Virus record (IMG/VR): IMGVR_UViG_3300026512_000065
Coordinates: 1-22,267 of that record
DNA from: a virus
DNA: 22,267 nucleotides
Direction: 5' to 3' (one strand)
Below are positions 2,323-18,827 of this stretch, in pieces. Below the pieces are notes generated by a model. It was given only the letters and a program-made list of their open reading frames with translations, searched no databases and was not told where the DNA came from. Position 1 is the first letter of the stretch, and the number at the start of each line of letters is the position of its first letter. A program made the translations under genes and the position numbers.

Positions 2323-2339
2323 TGTTACATTTTGTAACA
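2323..2339 (-). promoter_or_regulatory. 17-bp dyad repeat, copy 1 (portal leader)
   Basis: TGTTACATTTTGTAACA on the plus strand, which reads TGTTACAAAATGTAACA on the minus strand, in the orientation of transcription. It fills most of the 39-bp gap between terminase and portal and ends 17 bp before the portal start codon. The conserved flank CTA precedes it on the minus strand, as in most other copies. It is a likely protein-binding site, inferred from its perfect symmetry and its recurrence between genes. Confidence 0.8.
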
Positions 2340-2345
2340 TAGTTA

Positions 2346-3884
2346 TCAAATGACCATCCAGTCATCTGGTATTGGCTCCTCATCGAGCTGTTCAAGTTCT
2401 TTATACTCTTGCTCGACGTCGTAGTTCGGGTCATCTACCAGGTCTTTAGGATAGAAGAACCGACCTCCAACGTCCATCATTTCTACTATATACGCCGTAA
2501 CATCCATAACATCCCACTTCTTCGCCTTTGGGAAGGATAAGAGTTGTTGTTCCAAGATACTGCACACTTGCTTATTGTGGTATACTAGTCCCTGTCTGTA
2601 ATACGGCACGAGAGAACGAATACGCTCTACCTTCCCAGCCTCTTCAACGCCCCGTCGTGGGATGAGCCAAATCAATTCATACATCTTGCCCCTACGCATC
2701 ATCTCATTCTTAATAGGCTGTTGAATGAATTCCTTCAGACCTTTGTCTTCAACTCCAATCACGCGGGCTTCAAGACGATCAGCCATCGCAAACATTTCTG
2801 CGTACAATTCGTCAGGAGTCATAGGCCGTGCCACAATGTCTCGGATGAACAACCTATTTCCTCTGAGATCAACTCCAATACCTACTATTGCCGTATCTGC
2901 ACTGTGTGCAGTCTTTGTACGCCCTGGGTCAACCAGCACGACAGTTTCAATCTGCCTCTCCTCCAACAGCTTAACAAAGAACTCATCATCTTCATTGTAG
3001 TGTCGAAAGTATTCAGCCTTGAAGGGGGCATGTTTCCCACCTGTCGCTTTATTCATCAGCTCCATGTAGAATGTGTCAACAACGCCCTTCTCAAGAGCAC
3101 TCTCGTACTCGGCCTTTATTTCTTCAGTCGTCATATAATCAGGGACTTTAGACACAAGATCATCATCGCATACAGACAATGTAGTTCCAATCCAGTCTTG
3201 ACTATCAAGCAGTGTCTGTAATAGAGAATCCTCATGTTTTAATGTATCAATGTAGATGACTGTCCAGTCATTCCTGTATTTGTCAATAGACTTCATAACA
3301 TCGCCAAAGAACCATTGCTTCAACTCAAATCGCAGCTGTTCATTTTTAACTTCTTTTATATCTTCAAGGTCATCAATAATAATTAAATCCGGACGGTGAT
3401 TGCGCCAGTTCAAACCACGCACCTGCTGTTTAGCACCCCTCGGCAACACAAATACATCACCGAAAGCTACCCAACTCTTCTTAGAAAATGTCTCATCTCC
3501 AGTCTTCGAATACGACACCGTCACGTCACCAAAGAATTTCTTAATCGTGGGATTGCCCATTAACTCTGACTTAATATTCTCAGTCTGCATAATAGCCATC
3601 GTTTCACTGTGGCTTATGTATACTACAAAATGGACTTTCCGAAATAAAATGTCTCTAATAATCCGTGCCCGAACAATAGACGTCTTCCCAATACCACGAG
3701 GTGCAGCAATAACCACCCTTTTGTAGCCACTATCAATTAATGAGAATATCTCATTATGCAACACGTTGTAGGGAGCTGTAAATATATCATCCAGAAATAG
3801 CTTCCCAAAGTACGCTGTGTTGATAGATGATGCGGCCAGAATTGATTCGACAGATTCGTCTATTTCAGGCAACATTACTTCCAT
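2346..3884 (-). CDS. terL: Large terminase subunit (ATPase and nuclease)
   Basis: This 512-aa protein is the motor that packages DNA and cuts it into genome lengths. Visible motifs are an N-terminal ATPase with Walker A (APRGIGKTS, residues 61-69) and Walker B followed by the catalytic acidic residue (DLIIIDDLED, 166-175). A C-terminal RNase H-like nuclease follows, with acidic residues in LVDPGR (D319), GVEDKG (E379, D380) and WDVMDVTAY (D458, D461). The length is normal for the family. The gene overlaps the upstream DUF5675-like gene by 20 bp. Two in-frame ATGs lie nine bases apart; the first is used here with a weak GAGGTG upstream. The motor assignment is secure; whether packaging is headful or cos-type cannot be told. 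Confidence 0.95.
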   Translation of the reverse strand: MEVMLPEIDESVESILAASSINTAYFGKLFLDDIFTAPYNVLHNEIFSLIDSGYKRVVIAAPRGIGKTSIVRARIIRDILFRKVHFVVYISHSETMAIMQTENIKSELMGNPTIKKFFGDVTVSYSKTGDETFSKKSWVAFGDVFVLPRGAKQQVRGLNWRNHRPDLIIIDDLEDIKEVKNEQLRFELKQWFFGDVMKSIDKYRNDWTVIYIDTLKHEDSLLQTLLDSQDWIGTTLSVCDDDLVSKVPDYMTTEEIKAEYESALEKGVVDTFYMELMNKATGGKHAPFKAEYFRHYNEDDEFFVKLLEERQIETVVLVDPGRTKTAHSADTAIVGIGVDLRGNRLFIRDIVARPMTPDELYAEMFAMADRLEARVIGVEDKGLKEFIQQPIKNEMMRRGKMYELIWLIPRRGVEEAGKVERIRSLVPYYRQGLVYHNKQVCSILEQQLLSFPKAKKWDVMDVTAYIVEMMDVGGRFFYPKDLVDDPNYDVEQEYKELEQLDEEPIPDDWMVI

Positions 3885-4281
3885 TGCAGTACTGCACCTC
3901 CATTGTTATTTCATCCTTGTTGTAGAGACGACTCATCAATTCATTGAAGGCCGCCCCACTCCTCAATATCCCAGGCCGTCCACTCAATACACCAAACTCT
4001 TCTCCCACTAAAATACATCCTTCTGTGTCGTCACTTAGGTTTCCTTTATGTATCAATATATCGCTACGGCCAGGCACTCCTTGTACCTCAAACACTTCTC
4101 CGTGATGCATAGACATCACACGCCGACATGTGTAAGAGCCGGATGGAATACAAGACTTAAATGGCTCATTGTCCCTCCAAGGCAACTCAAGAGTCACGCC
4201 GATTGGAGTATCTCCAACGACCAATACTCCAAACGTACCATCTTTATTTTCTATAACCCGAATAACTCTTATGTCTGCCAT
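3865..4281 (-). CDS. DUF5675-like protein, candidate lysis or cell-wall enzyme
   Basis: This 138-aa protein has the pattern I associate with the DUF5675 family: LELPWRDN followed by CIPSGSY (residues 31-50), then VPGRSDILIHKGN and DDTEGCILVG (69-93). The His-Gly followed by a spaced Gly-Cys loosely recalls the catalytic motif of L,D-transpeptidase (YkuD) enzymes, so an action on peptidoglycan is possible but unproven. It is placed after the small membrane proteins and before the terminase, and no other endolysin is visible in the window. This makes it the best candidate for the wall-acting lysis enzyme. It overlaps its upstream neighbour by 38 bp and the terminase by 20 bp. The family call is from memory of the motif, without a search. 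Confidence 0.7.
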   Translation of the reverse strand: MADIRVIRVIENKDGTFGVLVVGDTPIGVTLELPWRDNEPFKSCIPSGSYTCRRVMSMHHGEVFEVQGVPGRSDILIHKGNLSDDTEGCILVGEEFGVLSGRPGILRSGAAFNELMSRLYNKDEITMEVQYCNGSNVA

Positions 4282-4588
4282 CTTCTATTCCATCCTTCAC
4301 TAGTACTTGTAATTCTATTATTGATTCGTTGATTTGTTCAACTTTTGCATTCAGAGCTTTTAATTCTTGACACATCTTTTCGTAGTTCTCATCAATGCGG
4401 GATTTGTTCTGTTTAACCCGCTCATTCATCACAGCAACATCAATTGCACTGTTGCCTGTTAATCCAGAGGGAGCTGAGATCACATTGTAACCGCCTATTG
4501 ATAATACAGATGATATTAAGGCAGCTACGATAAGACGCCATGTGTCGCTTATCCAACTCTTAAAACGATTATCACCATTGCCATTCAT
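4244..4588 (-). CDS. Membrane-anchored coiled-coil protein, possible lysis accessory
   Basis: This 114-aa protein has one predicted membrane segment (about residues 16-34, WRLIVAALISSVLSIGGY). A long charged helix with heptad-like spacing follows (about 52-98, ending in EQINESIIELQVLV), and the tail is basic. This shape, a short N-terminal anchor with an extended coiled coil, is seen in Rz-type inner-membrane spanins and XhlA-type lysis helpers. The neighbourhood of small membrane genes fits. The start codon overlaps the previous stop (ATGA), implying coupled translation; the nearest strong Shine-Dalgarno is 14 nt away. The exact role is not recognisable. Confidence 0.7.
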   Translation of the reverse strand: MNGNGDNRFKSWISDTWRLIVAALISSVLSIGGYNVISAPSGLTGNSAIDVAVMNERVKQNKSRIDENYEKMCQELKALNAKVEQINESIIELQVLVKDGIEDGRHKSYSGYRK

Positions 4589-4848
4589 ACGATCTTATAA
4601 TACCTCCCTATTAAGTACAACGTCTTCGACACGCCCACCAGTAGATAGCTAAGCCACTTATTCTTTACAAATGGGGCAAGACGCTCAAGTTCCATCCCAT
4701 ATCTGATTACGTAATATGGAATCATTCGCACTAAAGAATATTCTTGCACCTCTCCAACTGGGATTGGCTCTACTACCGGTAGGCCAAGTTTAGATGCACT
4801 TGATTCGAGTCTGTTTATTTTGTCAATGTCGATCTTTTTTGGTTTCAT
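4585..4848 (-). CDS. Small protein in the lysis/membrane cluster, unknown function
   Basis: This is an 87-aa protein starting MKPKKIDIDKINRLE. I use the ATG at 4846-4848; a GTG three codons earlier is also open. The ribosome binding site is weak (GTGAG). The N-terminus is charged. The C-terminus (about residues 64-87, WLSYLLVGVSKTLYLIGRYY) is hydrophobic and aromatic and could lie on or in a membrane. It is the first gene after a 17-bp dyad repeat and a strong hairpin, so it may begin a separately regulated sub-operon. I recognise no family. Confidence 0.65.
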   Translation of the reverse strand: MKPKKIDIDKINRLESSASKLGLPVVEPIPVGEVQEYSLVRMIPYYVIRYGMELERLAPFVKNKWLSYLLVGVSKTLYLIGRYYKIV

Positions 4849-4863
4849 AATGATCACTCACTT

Positions 4864-4880
4864 TGTTACATTTTGTAACA
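4864..4880 (-). promoter_or_regulatory. 17-bp dyad repeat, copy 2
   Basis: TGTTACATTTTGTAACA on the plus strand, in the same orientation relative to transcription as copy 1. It lies 15 bp upstream of the start codon at 4848. On the minus strand it is preceded by CACTA and followed by AAGTGAG. It is in the 90-bp gap between two small membrane-cluster genes. Confidence 0.8.
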
Positions 4881-4887
4881 TAGTGCT

Positions 4888-4907
4888 GGGGAACATCCAT
4901 GTTCCCC
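4888..4907. other. Perfect hairpin in the intergenic gap
   Basis: The arms GGGGAACAT and ATGTTCCCC are perfectly complementary around a 2-base centre. No T-run follows on either strand, so it is not a standard terminator. It lies just upstream of dyad copy 2 in the direction of transcription and could be an RNA processing site, an attenuator or a second operator. Its role is unknown. Confidence 0.6.
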
Positions 4908-4938
4908 TACACACCATGCCCTCCCACAGAAGTGGAAG

Positions 4939-5145
4939 TCATTTCCTCTTCACGTCCTTTAAGATCGCTCCAATCTGATCGTATAGAGACTCCAGCTCAT
5001 CAACCGTCAGTTTACCATCAGACGCATACTTGATGATGTCTTGTACCAAGTGTGTAGTCTTCTGGTATAACGGCGATTTGATGATGAGCCCCAATAAGAA
5101 TGTTACAATGGGAGCTGCGATTGCAAGAATTATGGATTCTGTCAT
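4939..5145 (-). CDS. Small single-span membrane protein, holin candidate
   Basis: This is a 68-aa protein starting MTESIILAIAAPIVTFLLGLI. I chose the ATG at 5143-5145 because AGGAGG lies 9 nt upstream and the start overlaps the previous stop (ATGA). A longer upstream reading has no support. The N-terminal ~22 residues form one membrane span. The remainder contains SDGKLTVDELESLYDQIG, an EF-hand-like stretch of the kind seen in some small phage holins. Holin function is inferred from size, topology and location in the lysis-like cluster. It is the last gene before a hairpin and dyad repeat. Confidence 0.65.
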   Translation of the reverse strand: MTESIILAIAAPIVTFLLGLIIKSPLYQKTTHLVQDIIKYASDGKLTVDELESLYDQIGAILKDVKRK

Positions 5146-5507
5146 AATACAAACCCTCCTGTTAGTGTTACTAAATTGATGACTAATATTGTTATCCAGT
5201 ATTGGGCAGGTGTGCGCCAGATTCCCAACCAGGAATTGTAGCACACCCGCTTCTTTCTCACCGAATCGATTATGTAGTATGTTGCATCTTCGGCGCTATA
5301 AGCAGGCAACATCCATAATATGTTCCAGTTGCCCATTGTGCCTGCCTTAGCTACCAGCAACAGTACGTAGCCAATAAAGATTGTTATATGCCAGCTCCAG
5401 CCTCTGTAAAATGTATGTAGTTTGTTATATGCAACGACTCCTTTTATCGTATAATCAAACACTCCAACGATCACTGCATATAAGAGAGCCGTCAAATAGC
5501 AATCCAT
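5142..5507 (-). CDS. Multi-span membrane protein, unknown function
   Basis: This is a 121-aa protein starting MDCYLTALLYAVIVGVFDYTI. I place the start at the ATG at 5505-5507 because GGGGGG lies 3 nt upstream; the frame is open to 5549 but without a ribosome binding site. It is strongly hydrophobic, with likely spans near residues 3-24, 37-55, 59-75 (less certain) and 101-121. It overlaps its upstream neighbour by 16 bp and its downstream neighbour by 4 bp. Together with the adjacent gene it forms a pair of small polytopic membrane proteins. This could be a lysis or superinfection-exclusion pair, but nothing in the sequence decides this. Confidence 0.7.
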   Translation of the reverse strand: MDCYLTALLYAVIVGVFDYTIKGVVAYNKLHTFYRGWSWHITIFIGYVLLLVAKAGTMGNWNILWMLPAYSAEDATYYIIDSVRKKRVCYNSWLGIWRTPAQYWITILVINLVTLTGGFVL

Positions 5508-5821
5508 ATTCCCCCCAGCACAAGGCCAATAAACAATCCGAGCATCCACCCAATTACAAAGAATCGAGTATCCCGTCGACTGTTGTATTGAAAGTTCTCA
5601 TAGCAACCATACTTCACAACTATATTGCTGTCAACTGCCTGAGTCCACTCGTTTACAAACTGCAGTGTCCATAACAGCAAAGAGGTGATTATAACTATGT
5701 ATAGAGATACAGATGACCAATACTTCATAGCAATTGGGTACAATACGACTTGTGTGATAAGAGGAATCAGTCCATGCCAGTAATCAAAAGGAACTCCAAA
5801 ATATGAATTCTTACCCAACAT
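5492..5821 (-). CDS. Three-span membrane protein, unknown function
   Basis: This is a 109-aa protein starting MLGKNSYFGVPFDYWHGLIP. Three hydrophobic segments are visible, at about residues 18-33, 37-56 and 87-109. The start is supported by AGGGGGT close upstream. The start region overlaps the end of the HNH endonuclease gene by 11 bp and the end overlaps the next membrane protein by 16 bp. There is no recognisable family. The position within a run of small membrane genes suggests a lysis or membrane role. Confidence 0.7.
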   Translation of the reverse strand: MLGKNSYFGVPFDYWHGLIPLITQVVLYPIAMKYWSSVSLYIVIITSLLLWTLQFVNEWTQAVDSNIVVKYGCYENFQYNSRRDTRFFVIGWMLGLFIGLVLGGIWIAI

Positions 5822-6455
5822 ACACCCCCTTTCCTAACACAGCTTGACTATAAGTCCAGCCTCTTGCTAATCTTTTAAATATTGTGGATGGTCTCATTTC
5901 AACAATCTCAGCCCACTCAGCAACAGTCTTTCTAACACCACCAATAACAACAAAAAAGCTTCTTCTAGTATTTCTAGCCTGCTCAGTAGCAGTAGCCCAT
6001 CTGCAATTCTCTGGAGAGTAATCACCATTAACATTTATTCTATCAAGACTGTGCATAGCAGTAGGAGCTTCTCCCATATCAGCTAAAAAGTTCTCAAATG
6101 AATGCAACCACCTATCACAAACTTTTATTCCACGACCTCCATAGTCAATGTATGACTTATGATTAGGGTTATAACACCGCTCCTTCATAGCTTTCCAGGC
6201 ACGCCACTCTTTAGACACACTAGTAGTAGATGTATGGCCATGCTTTCTTTGCGCTTTAGCTGCAGCTTCTCTTTGCAAGCAGCCACAGCTTTTCGACCTC
6301 CCACTCAGTAAGTCACCGCTTGCAACATTACGAACTGTTCCACAATCACATTTACACAGCCAGTACCTCTTTTTAGGTACTCCTGCGCTATGCGAGTATT
6401 CTAATACAGTCCAACGCCCAAATCTTCTGCCTGTTAAATCAATAGCTCTGGGCAT
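5811..6455 (-). CDS. HNH homing-type endonuclease with C-terminal DNA-binding helix
   Basis: This 214-aa protein is of a common phage type that cuts DNA site-specifically and can spread its own gene. The N-terminus opens with the RFGRWTVLE signature, then Cys-rich zinc-binding motifs CKCDCG (residues 34-39) and CGCL (57-60). Next come YGGRGIKVCDRW (105-116) and the HNH-like core HSLDRINVNGDYSPENCRW (135-153). The C-terminus (about 172-206, VRKTVAEWAEIVEMRPSTIF) resembles a NUMOD-type helix-turn-helix that recognises DNA. The ATG has GGAGG 7 nt upstream. The gene sits 1 bp after its upstream neighbour and overlaps the membrane-protein gene downstream, so it is tightly integrated in the operon and uses the late promoter. 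Confidence 0.9.
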   Translation of the reverse strand: MPRAIDLTGRRFGRWTVLEYSHSAGVPKKRYWLCKCDCGTVRNVASGDLLSGRSKSCGCLQREAAAKAQRKHGHTSTTSVSKEWRAWKAMKERCYNPNHKSYIDYGGRGIKVCDRWLHSFENFLADMGEAPTAMHSLDRINVNGDYSPENCRWATATEQARNTRRSFFVVIGGVRKTVAEWAEIVEMRPSTIFKRLARGWTYSQAVLGKGVYVG

Positions 6456-6456
6456 T

Positions 6457-6666
6457 TTACTTCCTCCCTTTCTTCGACTTAATTGCGTTCAATGCAGCCT
6501 GTGCCTGACGTCGTGTTCTTAAGTCATACCTGTCTTTGTTCTTAAGAACGTGTCGGGCAAATGCACTGGCACTTTTAAAACCTGCTTTCTCAGCCTTTGC
6601 CGTCAATAGACCACGACGACTGGGCTTAAAAGCTTTTTGCATCCATTTCTTTGGCCTCTTTGCCAC
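6457..6666 (-). CDS. Tiny highly basic protein, probably nucleic-acid binding
   Basis: This 69-aa protein (MAKRPKKWMQKAFKPSRRG...) contains 14 Lys and 9 Arg, so one third of the residues are basic. It starts with GTG at 6664-6666, preceded by AGGAGG with a 6-nt spacer, which makes the start convincing. The composition resembles small phage proteins of the DNA-packaging or nucleoid-binding kind, and it is expressed with the late genes. The binding role is inferred from charge only. Its ribosome binding site lies inside the 3' end of the upstream gene, which it overlaps by 41 bp. Confidence 0.75.
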   Translation of the reverse strand: MAKRPKKWMQKAFKPSRRGLLTAKAEKAGFKSASAFARHVLKNKDRYDLRTRRQAQAALNAIKSKKGRK

Positions 6667-7240
6667 CTTTCACCTCCTTTTCTACAAACCCATTTTTCCA
6701 ATTAGAAAGGTACTTACGTACCTTCCCTATATCAGGGTACACACCCCATACTTTAATCAACCCGTCTTTGTAGGCACGCTTTACCTCTTTGATTCGACTC
6801 TTATTGATTCGTTGCTCTATTACAGCACAAGTACTGTCAAGAGACAGACGAGACTGACTCCATCTTATGGAAGCATTCAATCCGTATTTAGCAAATAAGT
6901 CCGATGTGTCTTTGGCACAGATCACATAATAAAGGCGAACAAATCCGGCCTTTTTCAGCTGCCTTTGGTGCCTAACAAAACGGGCATATTCAACTAAAGA
7001 CTGTTGCTTGTGTAATAGTCGTTGGGCTTTGTGTAGTTGTTGCTTGTAGTAACGGGTTGAGTCTTTCCATGCACTTAGCTTTTCAACACGATTCTTTTTC
7101 ATCACTGTATCTTTCTTCGTATCGATCTTTACCGTCACAACTTTAGATACGCCCATAAAGTGTCGTATTGTTTGCCCCCTCGTATTGAATACGAGGATAA
7201 GTAACATTGTTACAATTTGTAACATAGTTGCACGAATCAT
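6626..7240 (-). CDS. N-terminally anchored or secreted helical protein, unknown function
   Basis: This is a 204-aa protein beginning MIRATMLQIVTMLLILVFNTRGQ, a short hydrophobic stretch that is either a signal peptide (possible cut before Gln) or a membrane anchor. A charged, largely helical body follows, with many Lys, Arg and Gln (residues about 50-95), and then a mixed C-terminal region. The start is well supported: GGAGG lies 8 nt upstream and the ATG overlaps the previous stop (ATGA). One copy of the 17-bp dyad lies inside codons 6-11, so the regulatory site is accommodated in the coding sequence as MLQIVT. An Rz-like spanin or a virion membrane protein are possibilities; I do not recognise a family. 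Confidence 0.7.
   Translation of the reverse strand: MIRATMLQIVTMLLILVFNTRGQTIRHFMGVSKVVTVKIDTKKDTVMKKNRVEKLSAWKDSTRYYKQQLHKAQRLLHKQQSLVEYARFVRHQRQLKKAGFVRLYYVICAKDTSDLFAKYGLNASIRWSQSRLSLDSTCAVIEQRINKSRIKEVKRAYKDGLIKVWGVYPDIGKVRKYLSNWKNGFVEKEVKGGKEAKEMDAKSF
7208..7224 (-). promoter_or_regulatory. 17-bp dyad repeat, copy 3, inside a coding start
   Basis: TGTTACAATTTGTAACA on the plus strand, still a perfect dyad but with the centre changed by one base compared with all other copies. It keeps the conserved 5' flank AACTA on the minus strand. It lies within codons 6-11 of the gene that starts at 7240, the only full copy not located between genes. Confidence 0.75.
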
Positions 7241-11397: not shown

Positions 11398-11434
11398 CGT
11401 GCTAAACGAGACGGGCGTGGGGGCGGGCGAACTA

Positions 11435-11451
11435 TGTTACAAAATGTAACA
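11435..11451 (+). promoter_or_regulatory. 17-bp dyad repeat, copy 4
   Basis: TGTTACAAAATGTAACA preceded by GAACTA and followed by AAG. It lies in the non-coding spacer upstream of the late leftward promoter and is oriented opposite to that promoter. Confidence 0.75.
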
Positions 11452-11544
11452 AAGTCAGTGAGATAATGAACAATGTTGTGGAATTTAGAAAACATCAGAA
11501 ATTTTGTAGAGATGTGGGTAATCATGGATGCCCAAGCCATTTCC

Positions 11545-11579: not shown

Positions 11580-11654
11580 CATTATTATTGTCGTCGCTAT
11601 TGTTTGTTGGATGATTGTTCATCGTATTGAGGGGCAATTGCCCGATGGGGCAAT

Positions 11655-11690
11655 AAAAAAGCCCGTATCGTGAATGATACGGGCTATTGT
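11655..11690 (-). terminator. Intrinsic terminator of the 11714-12504 unit
   Basis: The arms AGCCCGTATC (11660-11669) and GATACGGGCT (11676-11685) form a perfect 10-bp stem with a 6-base loop. On the minus strand a run of T follows (six A on the plus strand, 11655-11660). It begins about 30 bp after the stop codon at 11714, so it ends leftward transcription of the two small genes. Confidence 0.85.
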
Positions 11691-11713
11691 TGTGGGATAT
11701 GGGAATAGTGGGA

Positions 11714-12157: not shown

Positions 12158-12195
12158 TTTTTTTGTACCTCCATTTTGGTTAATTGATTGGTATA

Positions 12196-12504
12196 TTAAA
12201 CGAAATACACGCGATCTATCGATCGTATGCACTCATTTAACACGTCAATTTTTTGATACCAATAAACGATGGAATCGCGTATTAGGTTAATGCGTGATTC
12301 TAGATCGTCGACCTCAAACGAGGCAATGGTCATATGAATCACATGACCATCGACGCTAACCGTATTAAATTGATTGGTGTCGTTAATCATGTGGGCAACG
12401 AATAATGTAAAATCATTGCCCATCGTCCCTAGGTCAACCTCGATGGACACGTGTCCATGTTCGAGGTCAATCGTCGGATTAATAACGAATTTTCGTTTTT
12501 TCAT
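12196..12504 (-). CDS. Small protein, first gene of the leftward regulatory unit, unknown function
   Basis: This is a 102-aa protein starting MKKRKFVINPTIDLEHGHVS, with GGAGG 8 nt before the ATG. The first two thirds look like alternating beta strands (VSIEVDLGT, FTLFVAHMIND, VIHMTIASFEVDD). The C-terminal third is a long helix (LESRINLIRDSIVYWYQKIDVL). The predicted transcription start is only about 25 bp upstream, so it should be the most directly expressed leftward gene. It has no recognised family. Its position opposite the rightward promoter suits a regulatory or takeover protein, but nothing in the sequence shows this. Confidence 0.7.
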   Translation of the reverse strand: MKKRKFVINPTIDLEHGHVSIEVDLGTMGNDFTLFVAHMINDTNQFNTVSVDGHVIHMTIASFEVDDLESRINLIRDSIVYWYQKIDVLNECIRSIDRVYFV

Positions 12505-12535
12505 TTTGGATACCTCCGTTTAATTGTTCGCACAC

Positions 12536-12564
12536 AATATAATAAATAACGTCTCAATTGTCAA
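12536..12564 (-). promoter_or_regulatory. Leftward promoter of the 12504-11714 unit (TTGACA-N17-TATATT)
   Basis: On the minus strand TTGACA is at 12559-12564 and TATATT at 12536-12541, with 17 bp between. The first gene starts about 30 bp downstream. The boxes are identical to those of the rightward promoter at 13404, which faces away from it. Confidence 0.85.
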
Positions 12565-12615
12565 CACCAATTTTATCTACGATAAAAATATTGTTGAGAT
12601 GTGTGATATGGGTCA

Positions 12616-12708
12616 CATCGTCCTCGGACGATGGATGCGGGCATCTATGTTACAAAATGTAACACAATATCTCAAATGATGGACGGTGTCCATGTGGACG
12701 ACGTCCGC
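12616..12708. repeat. Cluster of GGAC/GTCC dyads
   Basis: Three small dyads occur within 93 bp: CATCGTCC-TC-GGACGATG (12616-12633, a perfect 8-bp stem), ATGGAC-GGT-GTCCAT (12679-12693) and GGAC-GAC-GTCC (12696-12706). They surround dyad copy 5 and lie 50-140 bp upstream of the leftward promoter, so they may bind a regulator or initiator. Confidence 0.5.
12648..12664 (+). promoter_or_regulatory. 17-bp dyad repeat, copy 5
   Basis: TGTTACAAAATGTAACA preceded by TCTA and followed by CAATATCTC. It lies about 85 bp upstream of the leftward promoter and points away from it. Confidence 0.75.
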
Positions 12709-12903
12709 AACACAAGGACGATATGACGTGTGTACTACTTACATTTCTACACAGAGAGACGGAAGACGAGATTCCCTGGGCATTAGATATATGGATTGTG
12801 GTTTTGTGTATGATTGATTGTATTGATTGATTAAATATAGGGGTGTATTCCGTGAAATTTATTTTGCATCAAAAATTTTTCTCAAATAAAATCCAACAAC
12901 AAC

Positions 12904-12960
12904 TTCGTCGATAAAAACAATCTCGCTGACAGAAATAAGTTCGTCGATAAAAACAATTTC
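12904..12960 (+). repeat. Two direct repeats with 36-bp period (iteron-like)
   Basis: TTCGTCGATAAAAACAAT followed by YTC occurs at 12904-12924 and 12940-12960 with one mismatch. Related shorter matches containing CGATAAAA are at 12580-12592 and at 14327-14340 just before the first Met-Cys gene. The period is close to three and a half helical turns. Two copies are few for a classical iteron origin. Confidence 0.5.
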
Positions 12961-13022
12961 ATTGTTATTCTCTTTTTCGTTCTGTGATTTTGTTTTGTTA
13001 GTAGTTTTTCTTTCTTCTGTCT

Positions 13023-13097
13023 AAAAAAAATAAAAAGAGAAAGAAAGAAGAAAGAACAAAAAGAACAACAACAAAAAGAACAAAAAGAACAACAACA
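13023..13097 (+). repeat. Purine-rich strand-asymmetric tract with 16-bp repeat
   Basis: Over 75 bases the plus strand contains a single T; it is almost entirely A with G and C. CAAAAAGAACAACAAC occurs at 13057-13072 and 13081-13096. The 60 bases before it (12961-13020) are T-rich, so the strand bias flips sharply. Arms TTCTTTCTTCT and AGAAGAAAGAA can pair across the junction. It could be an unwinding element or origin structure. Confidence 0.5.
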
Positions 13098-13127
13098 TTG
13101 AGAGTATAAAGGAGAGAATGTAATATA

Positions 13128-13147
13128 TTTTTTCTCTAGAGAAAAAA
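13128..13147. repeat. 20-bp perfect palindrome
   Basis: TTTTTTCTCTAGAGAAAAAA is its own reverse complement, with no loop. It may be a protein-binding dyad or cruciform element in the putative origin; a terminator is unlikely because the stem is AT-rich and lacks a loop. Confidence 0.5.
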
Positions 13148-13189
13148 AATAAAAACCACAATATTGTTAATAATTACAATCTGATAATG

Positions 13190-13204
13190 TTTTGTAACAT
13201 AGTT
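13190..13204 (-). promoter_or_regulatory. Half copy of the 17-bp dyad
   Basis: TTTTGTAACATAGTT matches one arm, the centre and the conserved CTA flank (read on the minus strand) of the dyad. The other arm, expected at 13183-13189, reads GATAATG and is lost. It lies 64 bp from full copy 6, in the same orientation. Confidence 0.5.
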
Positions 13205-13253
13205 GAGAGTAGTGATTGTTTCTTGAGTTTTTGATGGATTGGGTTAGTTATTG

Positions 13254-13270
13254 TGTTACATTTTGTAACA
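13254..13270 (-). promoter_or_regulatory. 17-bp dyad repeat, copy 6
   Basis: TGTTACATTTTGTAACA on the plus strand, oriented leftward, about 135 bp upstream of the rightward promoter. The minus-strand flank is CAACTA. It points away from the nearest promoter, as copies 4 and 5 do. Confidence 0.75.
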
Positions 13271-13403
13271 TAGTTGAAAAATGTTTTTCGTAATAAAGGT
13301 AATATGTTTTTGTTTTATGAGAAATGAAATTGAATCAAAATAAATTGGCCGGAATATGGGGGTGTATTTAATCAATCAATACAATTAATCAATCAAAAAA
13401 TAT

Positions 13404-13432
13404 TTGACAATGTGGAATCAATTTGTTATATT
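13404..13432 (+). promoter_or_regulatory. Main rightward promoter (TTGACA-N17-TATATT)
   Basis: TTGACA is at 13404-13409 and TATATT at 13427-13432, with a 17-bp spacer. Transcription should start near 13440. It drives the operon beginning at 13514. The leader between start point and ribosome binding site carries GGCC-containing dyads that could block or respond to a repressor. Confidence 0.88.
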
Positions 13433-13441
13433 ATACACGTA

Positions 13442-13483
13442 ATTGGCCGGATGGCCATCAATATCGGCCAAATGGCCGATCAA
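13442..13483 (+). promoter_or_regulatory. Tandem leader operators with GGCC arms
   Basis: Two related dyads lie just downstream of the -10 box: TGGCC-GGAT-GGCCA (13444-13457) and ATCGGCC-AAAT-GGCCGAT (13463-13480), each followed by ATCAA. The four GGCC sites are at 13445, 13453, 13466 and 13474, so the two dyads are 21 bp apart, two helical turns. The first 11 bases, AATTGGCCGGA, recur at 13344-13354 upstream of the promoter. The arrangement suits a repressor bound over the initial transcribed region. Confidence 0.6.
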
Positions 13484-13513
13484 TCAACAACTAAGAATGG
13501 AGGATTCATAAAA

Positions 13514-13828
13514 ATGAAACCCAACATAAAATCGACACTAGTAATGTCTGGGAAGAACAAATTCTGGGCACTGTTTAGTCTAGATGTGCATGATGAGCAG
13601 AGTGCAGAAGTTATAGCAAGAGCCGTGCGTAAAGCAGGAATCGGGATGGCAACTCGTTATGACAAAAGTACGTACACCCTGCAAATGGCATCAGAAGAGA
13701 TTAAAGCTACATACATGACAGCACGAAGGGTACTGAGTATTATTGAAAGAGACGTTATAGAGGTTATTGAAAATACGTTGATTAAAAACACAGTATTAGT
13801 AAATAAAATATCCTGGAGGGCTGAATGA
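13514..13828 (+). CDS. First gene of the rightward operon, small protein of unknown function
   Basis: This is a 104-aa protein starting MKPNIKSTLVMSGKNKFWAL. The ATG at 13514 has GGAGGA 9 nt upstream; the frame is open further back but that reading runs through the promoter and cannot be translated from it. The sequence alternates short strands and helices (EQSAEVIARAVRKAGIGMATRYD, then TYMTARRVLSIIERDVIEVIENTL). It overlaps the downstream RHH gene by 4 bp (ATGA), so the two are probably made together. No family is recognised. Confidence 0.75.
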   Translation: MKPNIKSTLVMSGKNKFWALFSLDVHDEQSAEVIARAVRKAGIGMATRYDKSTYTLQMASEEIKATYMTARRVLSIIERDVIEVIENTLIKNTVLVNKISWRAE

Positions 13829-14280
13829 ATATTCATCAAAATGTTACGATTCCCATTCCGCTGTACAATGCTGTAAAGGCGGAATTTGGAGAGAGGAAGT
13901 TAGGAATTGTTGTCAGGTCAGGGCTCTATCATATTATTAACGGTAAAGCCGTGCGTCCACTACCAGAGATGATGCAACCTAAGACAACGAGACAAATCAC
14001 CATCAACCCAAATCAATTGGAGCAGGCGATGAGTGTGCTGGGTGTGCAAAATAAGTCCTATGTAATCGCCGTTGCAATTACGAGTACCTTATCACACGGA
14101 ATCGTGTCGGAAGAGACTGTTAAAGAGAGTACTAACACGCAAGGGGTGATTGCCCGAGCACAAGCCGCACGGATTGCCCAGCAACACGGTGCGTCTATTG
14201 AAGAGTTGAGGAAGAGTGACAAGTACAGGATGTTGGAAGAGCACCTGATGGGGCTTGATGAAGACGAAGAGGATGATTGA
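13825..14280 (+). CDS. Tandem ribbon-helix-helix protein, candidate repressor
   Basis: This is a 151-aa protein. Two segments look like ribbon-helix-helix folds: residues about 5-40 (NVTIPIPLYNAVKAEFGE then LGIVVRSGLYHII) and about 56-92 (RQITINPNQLEQAMSVLG then KSYVIAVAITSTL). RHH proteins bind short dyads in DNA through a beta-ribbon. The C-terminal part is helical and ends in an acidic tail (DEDEEDD). It is the only obvious DNA-binding regulator in the window, lies next to the control region, and is directly followed by the best copy of the 17-bp dyad. This makes it the leading candidate to bind that repeat, an inference without direct support. GGAGG lies 5 nt before the ATG. Confidence 0.65.
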   Translation: MNIHQNVTIPIPLYNAVKAEFGERKLGIVVRSGLYHIINGKAVRPLPEMMQPKTTRQITINPNQLEQAMSVLGVQNKSYVIAVAITSTLSHGIVSEETVKESTNTQGVIARAQAARIAQQHGASIEELRKSDKYRMLEEHLMGLDEDEEDD

Positions 14281-14290
14281 TATGTAACTA

Positions 14291-14307
14291 TGTTACAAAA
14301 TGTAACA
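14291..14307 (+). promoter_or_regulatory. 17-bp dyad repeat, copy 7 (most extended)
   Basis: TGTTACAAAATGTAACA, here with CTA on the left and TAG on the right, so the perfect symmetry extends over 23 bp (14288-14310). It lies in the 90-bp gap between the RHH gene and the first Met-Cys gene and is oriented with transcription. Confidence 0.85.
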
Positions 14308-14370
14308 TAGCATCTCACAACCATTGTCGATAAAAGTAATACCAATCAACTAAGCAAAAAGGAGATAAAA

Positions 14371-15006
14371 ATGTGCTTTTTCGTTCATGACCTATTCTCA
14401 GAGCCAATTACAATAGGGATTAACAATAATCACATCCCTATTAGAAAGGTGGCTCAAGTAATAATAACTCGTGCGAAAGACGCGGTAGAGGTAAAGTTCA
14501 GATCACCCTACCAAAAACAAGTATATCGCACTCTTTACGTAAAACGTAAAGACGTGCGTGAGATGAAAACTGATATGTATCCCTTTTACATTGTCCTGCC
14601 TAAAGTAAAGATGGGCAGCCCAGATGACTTTGATTCCATCGATGAGGGATATCATTCCTATGTTGCACATAGGACAACTCTCATACGTGGACTTGATGTG
14701 GAAGACGCAGATAAGCAAAGGTCATTCTACATAAGCACTCATATCCCACTGTCTGGGATAATCCCATCAAAGGCACAGTTCTACTACGACCCGATCTATG
14801 CAGAATACGTGTCTGACCATATTGCTATCGGGCTTGATAAAGATGCGGCAATTATGGTATCGAATTATGATAAGACACTATTCTATGTCGTAAGAGCGGT
14901 GGACTACATCGCCCTTCTGGCATATGTATCGTTGTACGGGAGGACAACAAAATGGTACGACAAAAAACTGCATGCGATGGCGATGGAATACGCTGCAGAG
15001 TCATAA
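14371..15006 (+). CDS. Met-Cys family protein 1, unknown function
   Basis: This is a 211-aa protein starting MCFFVHDLFSEP. It is the first of four proteins here that begin Met-Cys and share ordered motifs: an N-terminal strand region (VAQVIITRAKDAVEV), SPYQKQVYRTLYVKRKDVR at 45-63, GYHSY at 93-97, IPSKAQFYY at 131-139, and EYVSD at 145-149. The C-terminal YGRTTKWYDKKL is at 189-200. Such a pattern (Met-Cys start, G-F/Y-H-S, P-K-G-x-x-Y-Y) is one I recall from uncharacterised proteins in many bacteria and phages. Because the initiator Met is usually removed before Cys, Cys2 may become an N-terminal reactive group. GGAG lies 6 nt before the ATG. Confidence 0.8.
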   Translation: MCFFVHDLFSEPITIGINNNHIPIRKVAQVIITRAKDAVEVKFRSPYQKQVYRTLYVKRKDVREMKTDMYPFYIVLPKVKMGSPDDFDSIDEGYHSYVAHRTTLIRGLDVEDADKQRSFYISTHIPLSGIIPSKAQFYYDPIYAEYVSDHIAIGLDKDAAIMVSNYDKTLFYVVRAVDYIALLAYVSLYGRTTKWYDKKLHAMAMEYAAES

Positions 15007-15028
15007 TAAGTAGAAAGGAGAAAAAAAG

Positions 15029-15661
15029 ATGTGTTTCGTCATAACACCTCAGTTCTCAAAGCCTATGAAGGCTGTACAAGACATCCCTATCAAGAAGATA
15101 GTACACGCCGTAATAACCCGAAAGAAAGATGGGGTTCAAGTTGTAATGAAGTCTCCCTACATGGAGCAGGAATACAAGACACTATTTGTGCCTCGCAAGG
15201 ATGTACGCAAGAGAGTTTTCTCTCACTATCACCTGTCCATCCAACTACCTCATGTAGAATTAGGTATTAGTGATGACCAATCACGCATAAGTCGAGGTTA
15301 TCACTCTTATCCGCTGAATCGGATGATAGAGACATCGTTCACTCGTATTAGTAACACCTACAAGGACAACAGGAGCGTAGTTGATCAGATTGAGATAGGC
15401 GTTCCCGCGGAGGGATACATCCCTCAGGGGTCGACGTTCTACTTCAATCAAGTTGACCTCGAGTACGTATCCGAAGACATATCACTATCTATTGAACCGA
15501 CAGACACTACCATAGCGGAAGAGGACAAATCCTATACGATGCACGCTGTAGAGGTTGATCGATTACTAGCACTCATCGCCTATCGTGTTCTGTATAGCAA
15601 AAGCTCAAAGTGGTATGATAGGGAGCTGACAAAACTCGAAAATGGTGTATTAATGCCTTGA
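15029..15661 (+). CDS. Met-Cys family protein 2, unknown function
   Basis: This is a 210-aa protein starting MCFVITPQFSKP and is the closest relative of the preceding gene. Shared motifs fall at nearly identical positions: SPYMEQEYKTLFVPRKDVR (42-60), GYHSY (90-94), IPQGSTFYF (131-139), EYVSE (145-149) and YSKSSKWYDREL (189-200). The two genes clearly arose by tandem duplication followed by divergence. GGAG is 9 nt before the ATG. Function is unknown, and nothing suggests a membrane or secreted location. Confidence 0.8.
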   Translation: MCFVITPQFSKPMKAVQDIPIKKIVHAVITRKKDGVQVVMKSPYMEQEYKTLFVPRKDVRKRVFSHYHLSIQLPHVELGISDDQSRISRGYHSYPLNRMIETSFTRISNTYKDNRSVVDQIEIGVPAEGYIPQGSTFYFNQVDLEYVSEDISLSIEPTDTTIAEEDKSYTMHAVEVDRLLALIAYRVLYSKSSKWYDRELTKLENGVLMP

Positions 15662-15677
15662 GAGAGGGGGGAAAAAG

Positions 15678-16280
15678 ATGTGCTTCTTCGTAAGTCCAAA
15701 CGACAAACGGCGGCATATCGCTAAAGTTAACATAACGGCGAGGAAATGGTTTCGCCTAAAGGTCATTCCATTGCAAAAGCAGCGGGTGGAGATTGTATTT
15801 GAGTCCCCTGCAATGGGTTACATCTACAGAAATCTTGCGGTTAATGTAGAGGACCTAACACACAAAATCGAATATGGTGATATAAAAGGAGAGATGCCTC
15901 ACAGCAACTTAAATCCAAACAAGCTGGATGAAATCTATGTGGGCTTCCACGCCCTGTTGGGTTCTGCCGAGAAAGGCAACATTACAGATAGTAGTTGCTT
16001 CATCCAACTGCCCATCATAATACCAAAGGGGGCTCGCTACTACTTAAATCCAGAGGACGGAGAAATAGTGTGCAACAAGTTCTATGTGGACAACGCCGCA
16101 CTGTACAACAGTGCAATAGTAATGCTATATGGAACTGATTTGGAGCAACAGCGTAATGGAGTACATACTCCCCCTTACGCATTGATTATTAACTCCATTG
16201 ATATTGCTATTAGAGCCCGTGCTCTAAGCATAGTGCATAACTACCCATACGCCGATGTGGTTAAACAGTTAAACAATTAG
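15678..16280 (+). CDS. Met-Cys family protein 3, diverged, unknown function
   Basis: This is a 200-aa protein starting MCFFVSPNDKRR. It retains SPAMGYIYRNLAVNVEDL (43-60), GFHAL (89-93), IPKGARYY (115-122) and EIVCN (129-133), but it lacks the WYD motif near the end and has shorter spacing in the middle. It is therefore an older duplicate than the first two. A strong purine-rich ribosome binding site (GGGGGG) lies 6 nt before the ATG and 16 bp separate it from the previous stop. Confidence 0.75.
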   Translation: MCFFVSPNDKRRHIAKVNITARKWFRLKVIPLQKQRVEIVFESPAMGYIYRNLAVNVEDLTHKIEYGDIKGEMPHSNLNPNKLDEIYVGFHALLGSAEKGNITDSSCFIQLPIIIPKGARYYLNPEDGEIVCNKFYVDNAALYNSAIVMLYGTDLEQQRNGVHTPPYALIINSIDIAIRARALSIVHNYPYADVVKQLNN

Positions 16281-16296
16281 TCAAAAGGAGGAAAAA

Positions 16297-16668
16297 ATGT
16301 GGCTCTTACGAGATGATGATGTAGTCATCGCTGCATCCGAGTACAAAGACGTACTCAGCACAATTCGCCGAACGTTTCATCTGGACAGTGCTGAGATCAC
16401 TGAAGTCCCATCCTACATTCGTACTGACGTACAGGGAATTGATGGGAAAGAGGCATGGCATATTGCCCTTAATGCTGAAAGGGGCAGATTATTATACACA
16501 AGCCGTGTTAGTGATCTTCAGATGGCCGGTCTGAAATGGTGGCTTGGAGAGGAAACAAAGGTGATCTGGAACAAAGATGGCGTGTTCCACTGTTATTGTT
16601 TTGCTCCTTCGGAGCGAAAGGCACTTGTAATAGCACGTCGTATTTTTAGAGGAGAGAACTATGAGTAA
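16297..16668 (+). CDS. Small protein, unknown function
   Basis: This is a 123-aa protein starting MWLLRDDDVVIAASEYKDVL with GGAGG 5 nt before the ATG. It contains an internal Trp-rich segment (GLKWWLGEETKVIWNKDGVF) and a basic C-terminal helix (ERKALVIARRIFRGE). No membrane span or known motif is visible. It overlaps the next gene by 8 bp and sits between the Met-Cys genes and two helical proteins, so it is expressed with them. No family is recognised. Confidence 0.7.
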   Translation: MWLLRDDDVVIAASEYKDVLSTIRRTFHLDSAEITEVPSYIRTDVQGIDGKEAWHIALNAERGRLLYTSRVSDLQMAGLKWWLGEETKVIWNKDGVFHCYCFAPSERKALVIARRIFRGENYE

Positions 16669-17059
16669 CCCAGAACCAATTAGTGATGAATTAAAAGACA
16701 TTGCCATGCAATGTGCTGGATATTTGACCAGACTAAATGCTCAATATGTAGAGGGCAAGAGTGACATAATTATCACTGGCATTGAGGCATTTAGGCGTGG
16801 CATTAATCTAAGCCGTATGCACGGTGCACTGATGATTCCTGTAGTTCGTGTGTTATTAGACAGTGCTCCAACCGATGTAACAGGGATAATAGACAGGATA
16901 GTCAACAGTCGCTTTGATGAAACCCCAGAGGACACTGTCGAACCCACCCAAATCCTAGAGTGGGTATACGAGGAGACACGTACGATCGGAGAATTTACAA
17001 TGGCTTGTCTAGTATTTGGCATTATAACTCATGCCCAGGAGGAAGAGGAGGTAAACTAA
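16661..17059 (+). CDS. Helical acidic protein, unknown function
   Basis: This is a 132-aa protein starting MSNPEPISDELKDIAMQCAG, preceded by GAGGAG about 6 nt upstream. It is predicted almost entirely helical and ends with EEEEVN. Its final stop shares a base with the next ATG (TAATG), which couples translation to the downstream gene. The next gene is of similar size and also all-helical; residues ITGIEAFRRGINLSR here and NICYQAFNFGRDLSFS there suggest the two may be distant relatives, which I could not verify. Confidence 0.7.
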   Translation: MSNPEPISDELKDIAMQCAGYLTRLNAQYVEGKSDIIITGIEAFRRGINLSRMHGALMIPVVRVLLDSAPTDVTGIIDRIVNSRFDETPEDTVEPTQILEWVYEETRTIGEFTMACLVFGIITHAQEEEEVN

Positions 17060-17502
17060 TGGACTCAACACGTCTAAAGGAAGTAATCGAGCAGTTCCAG
17101 AACTTCTTGCTTGAGGCATCTGTAGAGGAGCCCTCTGAGATAAGCACATTCAACATATGCTATCAAGCATTCAACTTCGGACGGGACTTATCGTTTAGTG
17201 CAGACGAATCTCTATTAAGACAAATCATCCTATTTCTGCTGAACTCAAGTGGCCGTAGGAAGGAAGTGCTCACTACAATACACGTGGTACGTGCAATACT
17301 CCAAGCAATGAATGAAGTGGACTCAAGTCAGCATGTTGCAAAGCTCGTCATGATTGCTCTTGCAATTAGCAAATCTAAGACGATAGCAGATGCTATACTG
17401 GTATCTATTGTTCTTGGTACTGCTGGAGGAATGGCCAAGGCGATAGAGGTGGGAGATGAACTAATCAGCATGTTCAACGAAGGGAAAGGAGGTGGTGATT
17501 AA
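17059..17502 (+). CDS. Helical protein, possible paralogue of its neighbour, unknown function
   Basis: This is a 147-aa protein starting MDSTRLKEVIEQFQNFLLEA. I chose the ATG at 17059, which overlaps the previous stop and has GGAGG 7 nt upstream; the frame is open upstream to 16960 but lies inside the previous gene. It is strongly helical with hydrophobic patches (LRQIILFLLN, LVMIALAIS, AILVSIVLGTAGGMAKAI) that look like packed helices rather than clear membrane spans. It is the last gene before a strong terminator. Confidence 0.7.
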   Translation: MDSTRLKEVIEQFQNFLLEASVEEPSEISTFNICYQAFNFGRDLSFSADESLLRQIILFLLNSSGRRKEVLTTIHVVRAILQAMNEVDSSQHVAKLVMIALAISKSKTIADAILVSIVLGTAGGMAKAIEVGDELISMFNEGKGGGD

Positions 17503-17505
17503 CTA

Positions 17506-17522
17506 ACACACTTTAGGTGTGT
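17506..17522 (+). other. Small hairpin before the terminator
   Basis: ACACAC-TTTAG-GTGTGT forms a 6-bp stem four bases after the stop codon and ten bases before the main terminator stem. It may assist termination or protect the RNA end. Confidence 0.4.
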
Positions 17523-17531
17523 CCCCCTTAC

Positions 17532-17565
17532 AGGCGCCTCATATTAGGGGAGTGAGGCGCCTTTT
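17532..17565 (+). terminator. Intrinsic terminator inside the rightward operon
   Basis: The arms AGGCGCCTCA (17532-17541) and TGAGGCGCCT (17553-17562) form a perfect 10-bp GC-rich stem with an 11-base loop, followed by TTTT. No promoter like the four recognised ones follows before 17640, so downstream genes rely on read-through or an unseen promoter. A 17-bp dyad begins 8 bp after the T-run. Confidence 0.85.
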
Positions 17566-17572
17566 GCAACTT

Positions 17573-17589
17573 TGTTACAAAATGTAACA
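17573..17589 (+). promoter_or_regulatory. 17-bp dyad repeat, copy 8
   Basis: TGTTACAAAATGTAACA with left flank ACTT (others have ACTA) and right flank CAGTATCTC. It lies between the terminator and the small zinc-finger-like gene, oriented with transcription. Confidence 0.8.
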
Positions 17590-17639
17590 CAGTATCTCAT
17601 AACAAATTATTATTACAAGCGTAATATGGAGGATAAGTA

Positions 17640-17837
17640 ATGGAACCTCATGAAATAGTTCAACAGATTGAGGCCCTTGAGGATGAAATTAGTAAGCTGC
17701 GGAAGGAATATGCACAAATAGTCCCTCCGTGTGCTAATACAGACTGTTCATTCTATGATGAGCGCACCACAGGAAACTGTAGGTGGACACACTATGTTGC
17801 AGATTGCAAGGATTATATACCTGAAGGGGGTGATTAG
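17640..17837 (+). CDS. Small Cys-rich (zinc-finger-like) protein, unknown function
   Basis: This is a 65-aa protein starting MEPHEIVQQIEALEDEISKL, a short coiled-coil-like helix. It is followed by a compact region with four Cys (residues about 31, 36, 47 and 56, in PPCANTDCSF, GNCRWTHY and ADCKDY). Four Cys in 26 residues suggest a bound zinc ion. GGAGG lies 7 nt before the ATG. Such small zinc proteins are often phage regulators or partners of host proteins, but no family is recognised. It is followed at a 2-bp distance by the fourth Met-Cys gene. Confidence 0.7.
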   Translation: MEPHEIVQQIEALEDEISKLRKEYAQIVPPCANTDCSFYDERTTGNCRWTHYVADCKDYIPEGGD

Positions 17838-17839
17838 AG

Positions 17840-18529
17840 ATGTGTCTAATAAAACCAATCCCAATTACTTCAGAAATACCAATCATGTCCTATAGACAAA
17901 TGGGCGTCGTAGTTAGAGACGGACAAATGCTGGGCATTCCATCTATAAGTCCTATGTCGGATGAATACGAAATAGATAACACGTCCGGACTCTCCGACCC
18001 AGCCCGCCTTTACTCTACATGCCCAAAGGACTTTGGCTATCACACAATGTTTTTGCATTATGGTTTAGTGGATACTTTTGCTTTCGTACCAACTAAAGTA
18101 CAATCTCTAAAGGAAGGAGTCCAAGCACTGGGTGTGTACTCTGTACTAATACACCCAAAGCACTTAATGTACACGGACTTCGAGGACATCACAAGTAATT
18201 ACTTCTACCTAAACCCAACACCCATAGGCATACACGAACATGTACTGTACACTCCACTGCTGTGGGACAGGATATCCTGCGCACTATGGGTTGATGCACA
18301 AGAGGTCAACATTAGCTACAGTGGAGATATAAACGTCATCATGGACGACAACTCAGTTCATACGTTTAAAACTCGGGATGCTGTCATCCCATACGAGAAG
18401 GCTCTACAAAAAGAACTTAGACGAAACAGGAAAGTTGGTCATATCATTACTCTATTATGGCAACGTAATAGGATAAAGAGCTTTTTATCTAAATCACCTT
18501 ATGATGGTGAGAGAGGAGGAAAGGAATGA
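17840..18529 (+). CDS. Met-Cys family protein 4, distant, unknown function
   Basis: This is a 229-aa protein starting MCLIKPIPITSEIP. It keeps the Met-Cys start, GYHTM (66-70), a strand-rich middle with VLIHPKHLMY (102-111), and ITSNYFYLN (117-125) in place of the YVS motif of the others. The spacing differs, so it is the most diverged member and its membership is less certain. It is separated from the other three by the terminator and dyad copy 8. A GGGGGTG site lies 9 nt before the ATG and it overlaps the next gene by 4 bp. Confidence 0.65.
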   Translation: MCLIKPIPITSEIPIMSYRQMGVVVRDGQMLGIPSISPMSDEYEIDNTSGLSDPARLYSTCPKDFGYHTMFLHYGLVDTFAFVPTKVQSLKEGVQALGVYSVLIHPKHLMYTDFEDITSNYFYLNPTPIGIHEHVLYTPLLWDRISCALWVDAQEVNISYSGDINVIMDDNSVHTFKTRDAVIPYEKALQKELRRNRKVGHIITLLWQRNRIKSFLSKSPYDGERGGKE

Positions 18530-18807
18530 CGTATGATCTTTCTACTTTAATAGGTGGGCTGTGCGTTGTACTGGGTGTACTGAGTATGGTAAGCTGGACG
18601 GCATTCATGATTGCCTTGTTTGTGGCAATGAGCAATTGTGATATACCAGACAACTACACATTTATTGACTTCATACTAGGCAAAATACCCAAGGACTCAT
18701 TCTATTCTACAAGCGATGCAGGTGCACAGTATATGACAACTTACTTACTACGTGCAGCTACAATACTGACGATGTTGTACGTTCTGATACGTCCGATAAA
18801 ATTATAA
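18526..18807 (+). CDS. Two-span membrane protein, unknown function
   Basis: This is a 93-aa protein starting MTYDLSTLIGGLCVVLGVLS. Hydrophobic segments at about residues 7-35 and 71-89 flank a polar loop. GGAGG lies 5 nt before the ATG, which overlaps the previous stop (ATGA). It shares this region with a second two-span membrane protein 230 bp downstream. No family is recognised. Confidence 0.7.
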   Translation: MTYDLSTLIGGLCVVLGVLSMVSWTAFMIALFVAMSNCDIPDNYTFIDFILGKIPKDSFYSTSDAGAQYMTTYLLRAATILTMLYVLIRPIKL

Positions 18808-18810
18808 CTA

Positions 18811-18827
18811 TGTTACAAAATGTAACA
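18811..18827 (+). promoter_or_regulatory. 17-bp dyad repeat, copy 9
   Basis: TGTTACAAAATGTAACA preceded by TAACTA and followed by AAG. It lies 3 bp after the previous stop codon and 30 bp before the next ATG, oriented with transcription. Confidence 0.8.

Follow-up and report, generated by a model that had tools for sequence, protein, structure and literature searches.

Evenly spaced palindromes in a phage family as candidate loading sites for ParB-methyltransferase fusion proteins

ParB and Noc are CTP-gated clamps on 16-bp palindromes, parS and NBS, respectively. ParB Arg173 reads G1 of parS, and Noc Gln173 reads A1 of NBS (PMC7383237). KorB has 12 sites on plasmid RK2 and slides to promoters (PMC11790492). 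Fusions of a ParB-type CTPase with an N6/N4 DNA methyltransferase are common in phages and have been listed as proteins of unknown function with a suggested role in anti-defence (PMC12704722). Here, we analyzed a stretch of viral DNA of 22,267 nucleotides (positions 1 to 22,267 of IMG/VR record IMGVR_UViG_3300026512_000065; hereafter, the window) that carries nine copies of one palindrome, referred to as the dyad, and compared it with related phages. The dyads are probably parS-like loading sites for a fusion protein of this kind, composed of a ParB-type clamp, a helix-turn-helix (HTH) domain, and an N6/N4 DNA methyltransferase.

Several described systems resemble the dyads in part. The stoperators of mycobacteriophage L5 (Cluster A) are also short, dispersed, and intergenic, with one site per few kilobases, but they are asymmetric 13-mers bound by a lysogeny repressor, whereas the dyads are symmetric and belong to phages predicted to be lytic. 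The SAS/ESAS elements of Cluster K phages (PMC3203893) are short repeats located just before start codons, some of them with 17-bp inverted repeats. SAS are asymmetric and able to pair with 16S rRNA, whereas the dyad precedes a separate AGGAG-like ribosome-binding sequence and is also found inside long genes. KorB, a sliding clamp of the ParB family, has roughly a dozen palindromic sites on one replicon, similar to the arrangement seen here, but it is a repressor that acts with KorA and has no methyltransferase, and the dyads are spaced regularly through structural operons and even inside genes. No report of the cognate sites of the fusion proteins or of such dyad networks was found in the open-access literature searched. 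The listed fusions (PMC12704722) have the same domain pair, and no site was found described there; the present analysis proposes a site network for such fusions, together with part of a recognition code. A text search of a study on replication-linked plasmid methyltransferases (PMC7736820) gave no ParB fusion.

Dyads of the window and of related phages

The window contains nine perfect TGTTACA-N3-TGTAACA dyads with zero mismatches. The original prediction had reported these nine copies and a half copy at 13190, and every one of them was present at its coordinate. The sites are as follows, with the 25-bp element first and its core in parentheses.

2319-2343 (core 2323-2339), minus strand: dyad site 1, in the 39-bp gap from the TerL stop to the portal start
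4860-4884 (core 4864-4880), minus strand: dyad site 2, in the gap upstream of open reading frame (ORF) 4848-4585
7204-7228 (core 7208-7224), minus strand: dyad site 3, centre AAT, in the first codons of ORF 7240-6626
11431-11455 (core 11435-11451), plus strand: dyad site 4, in the 700-bp gap preceding the TerS operon
12644-12668 (core 12648-12664), plus strand: dyad site 5, about 80 bp upstream of the leftward early promoter
13190-13206, minus strand: half site TTTTGTAACATAGTTGA
13250-13274 (core 13254-13270), minus strand: dyad site 6, about 130 bp upstream of the rightward early promoter (TTGACA, 13404)
14287-14311 (core 14291-14307), plus strand: dyad site 7, 18 nt past the stop of ORF 13825-14280
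17569-17593 (core 17573-17589), plus strand: dyad site 8, downstream of a terminator-like hairpin
18807-18831 (core 18811-18827), plus strand: dyad site 9, in the gap ahead of an ORF starting at about 18858

No additional copy of the dyad appeared in the window when up to three mismatches were tolerated (1.99 expected from shuffles), and no single 7-3-7 dyad exceeded two copies in any of 300 first-order Markov simulations. Because the shuffles and simulations fell far short of nine, a chance origin was excluded. When the flanks were aligned, the full element proved to be a 25-bp palindrome, ACTWTGTTACA-N3-TGTAACAWAGT; the 17-bp unit described originally is its exactly repeated core and is too short as a measure of the whole. 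Where all but one of the copies had been said to lie between genes, our gene calls placed seven of nine in gaps. The copy at 7208 lies within codons 5-11 of its ORF, and the overlap of the copy at 18811 is limited to the first codons of one called start, with a better start preceded by GGAGG located downstream.

Relatives with TerL proteins of 44-48% identity carry a dyad in the same frame just past the TerL stop with other inner letters, namely TGTTCAT-AAT-ATGAACA in L121-123 and TGTTCAA-TTT-TTGAACA in L124 and L126. The complete 44.4-kb genome of Desulfofustis phage LS06-2018-MD01 (OP947158.1), whose TerL is 45.7% identical to that of the window, has nine sites round the genome of the form CTATGTCCCA-N3-TGGGACATAG (GCTATGTCCCA-AnT-TGGGACATAGC). 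Additional contigs were found by a scan using the outer frame alone, and they make up one family with TerL, portal, TerS, capsid, PD-(D/E)XK, and AAA_24 in common. Every genome has its own dyad, with 21 sites in 52 kb, 15 in 48 kb, 15 in 49 kb, and 17 in 50 kb for G002, G003, G011, and G012, respectively; the letters among the relatives include TGTCCCA, TGTTCAA, TGTTCAT, TGGGGA, TGGTAA, and AGATnGTTTAA. De novo discovery that made no use of the letters yielded dyads of at least three copies at 74 of the 205 family loci, and shuffled versions of these loci yielded none. Three copies were reached in 7 of 112 control loci: three of these belong to the family, and the other four appear low-complexity or AT-rich. 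As judged from these sequence comparisons, the nine dyads of the window are one member of a large, fast-changing, and evenly spaced family of sites. A direct search of viral contigs with the 17-mer was also tried; most of its matches were unrelated single copies, and similar letters were seen in a few unrelated phages.

The expectation that related phages also keep their sites between genes was borne out: 102 of 126 sites were intergenic and 15 more were within 60 nt of a gene end, in DNA that is about 90% coding. The dispersed intergenic network of putative protein-binding dyads proposed for the window is genome-wide in its relatives. The centre of the site usually lies 11-25 nt past a stop codon, ahead of the ribosome-binding site. 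In five records (G002, G003, G008, G011, and G012), one site lies inside a gene of 4.3-5.8 kb; the in-gene copies of G011 and G012 are identical, and at least two of the five records are near-copies. In all five complete or near-complete genomes, the coefficient of variation of the spacing was 0.49-0.57, versus 0.92-1.05 for random choice of gaps (P = 0.02, <0.0002, 0.0006, 0.0014, and 0.0034), and the largest site-free gap was 5.5-7.8 kb. Such regular spacing suggests selection for coverage of the whole genome rather than for control of particular genes.

The original prediction also gave each dyad a direction, matching transcription inside operons and opposing it near promoters. Within the window this was confirmed: the direction set by the AAA centre runs along transcription at 2323, 4864, 7208, 14291, 17573, and 18811 and opposes the neighbouring operon at 11435, 12648, and 13254. 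It did not carry over to the wider set, as the centres on the transcript strand were mixed among 121 operon-internal sites of the window and its relatives (AAA 40, TTT 20, AAT 18, ATT 17, TTA 10, and TAA 8). The direction in the window arises in part because the right arm runs into an AAAGGAG-like ribosome-binding sequence at some sites.

Repeated dyads of other kinds were also seen. In L031 and L053 (IMGVR_UViG_3300036832_000975, 65 kb), four ggTGTTACAAAATGTAACAcc-like dyads were seen, some of them followed by a sequence resembling a ribosome-binding site; their flanks depart from the CTW..WAG frame, and they are possibly another system with the same core letters. L011 and L039, from another phage group, carry repeated TGTGTGT-N3-ACACACA-like dyads, possibly an independent dispersed system.

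ParB-methyltransferase fusion as candidate reader

All 11 records that cover the region past AAA_24 encode a ParB_N-HTH-N6_N4_Mtase protein of 430-470 aa, represented in one of them (G001) by its N-terminal part. In the Desulfofustis phage, 2.7 kb separate the AAA_24 homologue from the ParB-methyltransferase gene that follows, and the window therefore ends just short of the expected locus; we infer that the window phage encodes the fusion protein beyond position 22255. Among 28 relatives, the fusion protein has the Pfam ParB_N domain in every case, and N6_N4_Mtase always replaces the C-terminal dimerisation domain of ParB. The GGRR and ENxxRK nucleotide-binding boxes are nearly or fully invariant. 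Foldseek hits of the N-terminal half were Noc, CTP-bound ParB, and KorB; those of the C-terminal half were CcrM, M.BceJIV, and N4-cytosine methyltransferases. The AlphaFold model of the L263 protein (mean pLDDT 87.6, pTM 0.69) places residue 146 as the first residue of the recognition helix (151-166 in L263 numbering) and residues 151, 152, and 155 inside it.

Three alignment searches supplied further relatives, giving 57 non-redundant genomes in which protein residues (numbered as in the Desulfofustis phage protein) were compared with the letters of the dyad half (positions 1-11). All protein columns were correlated with all dyad positions after phylogenetic distance was regressed out. HTH columns accounted for 21 of the top 100 column-by-position correlations, against an expectation of 6.2 (p = 4.5e-7). 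The ribbon-helix-helix (RHH) protein encoded next to the fusion gene contributed columns to 14, with 16.5 expected, and showed no enrichment. His146 occurred with G7 (7/9 versus 0/48, p = 1.4e-7; five independent pairs, three or four concordant and none opposed), Gln146 with A7 (3/3 versus 2/54; three independent pairs, concordant and covering both major site types), Asp146 with A6 (5/5 versus 3/52), Arg151 with C10 (4/4 versus 0/53; two or three independent pairs, concordant), and Arg155 with G2 (28/28 versus 1/29; a single origin). The link between His and G had been recorded before the extra loci were added, two of which (L305 and L318) fitted it. Residue 136 was also considered as a determinant of position 9; it was strong in a small first set, the independent pairs were then about even, and it is not claimed. 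Taken with the domain content of the protein, the co-variation indicates that the fusion protein very probably reads the dyads, and it suggests how a widespread and so far unexplained fusion finds phage DNA.

The likeness to ParB-parS and Noc-NBS extends from the ParB_N fold and its two nucleotide-binding boxes to the many dispersed palindromes and to an HTH residue following a GKS motif that tracks the letters of the site. A GK(S/T) motif precedes residue 146, as G170-K171-S172 precedes Arg173 in Caulobacter ParB. Residue 146 was equated with Arg173 by eye from this motif and the model because HMMER alignments slip there: a full-profile alignment to Noc (PDB) slipped in the HTH, and an HTH-only profile gave weak matches to sigma-like and antitoxin HTHs only. 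When aligned by eye, the window core TGTTACAAAATGTAACA and parS TGTTTCACGTGAAACA have TGTT.CA and TG.AACA in common; many relatives' dyads are further from the parS letters. Unlike ParB and Noc, the proteins here carry a methyltransferase in place of the C-terminal dimerisation domain, have a new specificity in each phage, and belong to phages predicted to be lytic. The annotation of the complete Desulfofustis phage shows no ParA, though no dedicated ParA search was made.

Several points weigh against the fusion protein as the reader of parS-like sites. The fusion gene is outside the window, as the contig stops before the expected locus. About half of the family loci of at least 15 kb have no dyad of three or more copies under the criteria used, and a few relatives (L238 and L248) have a 4-bp centre instead of 3. 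L244 has His146 with T7. The residue-base pairs were selected after inspection, and their independent origins are few. The 17-bp core, within an element of 25 bp, has one more base pair at mid-site than the 16-bp parS; the base read by ParB Arg173 corresponds to dyad position 6, not 7; and the length of 25 bp implies that the outer bases are also read, by an unassigned part of the protein.

In nearly all loci covering the region (L219-L298), the ParB-methyltransferase gene is preceded by that of a conserved RHH protein of about 80 aa. By analogy with KorA and KorB, it may be a partner or regulator of the fusion protein. The window's own RHH-like ORF (13825-14280) had no family match.

Proposed function and alternative explanations

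In the proposed mechanism, the two HTHs of the fusion protein would read both arms of the palindrome, and the N-terminal ParB fold would close round the DNA and slide off the site, as in ParB, Noc, and KorB, carrying the methyltransferase across the neighbouring kilobases. With a site each 2.5-5 kb, set in the space from a stop codon to the next ribosome-binding site or within a very long gene, the enzyme could cover the whole genome. The simplest purpose would be to shield the phage genome from host restriction, and fast-evolving site specificity would let each phage mark its own genome and not that of a competitor. Genome-wide methylation as the purpose is put forward tentatively, at somewhat less than even chances. 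The same caution applies to clamp-delivered methylation, in which the loading sites, and not the short motif of the enzyme alone, would set which DNA is methylated; this is possibly a new principle. With these candidate cognate sites, a partial recognition code, and phages that together offer many natural specificities, the open function of the fusions (PMC12704722) becomes testable. If the proposal is true, ParB-type clamps would extend from segregation and silencing to the delivery of an enzyme along a genome, and many orthogonal ParB-site pairs would become available for imaging or engineering.

The main rival keeps the same fusion protein and assigns it transcription control in the manner of KorB: intergenic clamps would act on distant RNA polymerase, blocking or tuning it, and methylation would serve as a switch. 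The presence of sites in the gaps of operons and upstream of each of the two early promoters is consistent with this, and KorB reaches promoters up to 1.5 kb away by sliding (PMC11790492). This explanation, however, leaves unexplained the even spacing in the late operons and the sites in genes of 4-6 kb, and no KorA-like partner was identified, although the RHH protein before the fusion gene could be one. We regard it as unlikely, though it is the strongest of the alternatives. A role in genome organisation, in which ParB-type binding serves compaction, sorting of sister genomes, or packaging and the methyltransferase marks phage DNA, agrees with the ParB fold, the parS-like palindromes, and the regular spacing. 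It is less probable still, as no ParA is annotated, KorB-CTP did not condense DNA in vitro (PMC11790492), and lytic phages do not need partition.

The dyads might instead be operators of another repressor, such as the RHH protein or a CI-like or stoperator system. The position of the RHH gene ahead of the fusion gene favours this, and the half-site TGT-T-ACA is itself palindromic, which would suit RHH dimers. The original prediction had named the RHH protein as a reader to be tested. That assignment was attractive with eight sequences and failed with more genomes: its columns showed no excess co-variation with the site, unlike the HTH of the fusion protein, and the RHH strand RLSIEIT was found alike with GGGGA, GTTCAT, and GGTAA sites. 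The comparison with L5-type stoperators was not supported either, since the dyads are symmetric rather than asymmetric 13-mers, their direction is not conserved, and the relatives are lytic. Pink-berry phages including the Desulfofustis phage, whose host was inferred from CRISPR, were predicted to be strictly lytic (PMC10370329). A search of one genome per species (84,980 species of bacteria and archaea) gave close full-length homologues of the fusion protein only on phage-genome-sized contigs of 45-50 kb binned with metagenome-assembled genomes. A lysogeny repressor network is therefore unlikely. On the whole, a repressor other than the fusion protein is very improbable. Intergenic RNA hairpins for processing or stability, or N4-type hairpin promoters, would account for a 7-11 bp stem with a 3-nt loop beside stop codons, but they were rejected as scarcely credible because C.A exceeded G.U among imperfect pairs (98 versus 46 in transcript orientation), the reverse of selection on an RNA stem, and because the centres are unoriented and several sites lie upstream of promoters.

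Other features of the window and of related contigs

Four genes of the window were assigned by family matches and by comparison with the Desulfofustis phage.

384-2306, minus strand: portal protein, family marker (SU10_portal, E = 4.4e-17; 38% to Desulfofustis phage)
2346-3884, minus strand: terminase large subunit (TerL), family marker (PHROG 38, E = 1.6e-67; 45.7% to Desulfofustis phage)
20484-21497, plus strand: PD-(D/E)XK nuclease (Pfam PF12705; 39% to Desulfofustis phage CDS 5613-6575)
21494-22255, plus strand: AAA_24 ATPase (Pfam PF13479; 42% to Desulfofustis phage CDS 6889-7677)

The PD-(D/E)XK nuclease gene is early and conserved, and it lies upstream of where the ParB-methyltransferase gene is expected. 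The portal protein of the window has 640 aa; that of a relative (L126, 7018-10074) has 1018 aa with an intein-like insertion (CYDEETEVLTERGWM...). In the Desulfofustis phage record (L198, OP947158.1), some small ORFs bear labels such as 'tellurite resistance' and 'aminoglycoside resistance', which look spurious.

An 88-nt inverted repeat (74%) at 12802-12889 and 13313-13400 surrounds an AT-rich non-coding region located between divergent early promoters (TTGACA at 13404 on the plus strand and about 12564 on the minus strand). This region resembles an origin of replication or a control region. At 14371-16280, three successive ORFs of 211, 210, and 200 aa each begin with MCF(F/V) and have alike start regions; they look like tandem paralogues, with no function assigned.

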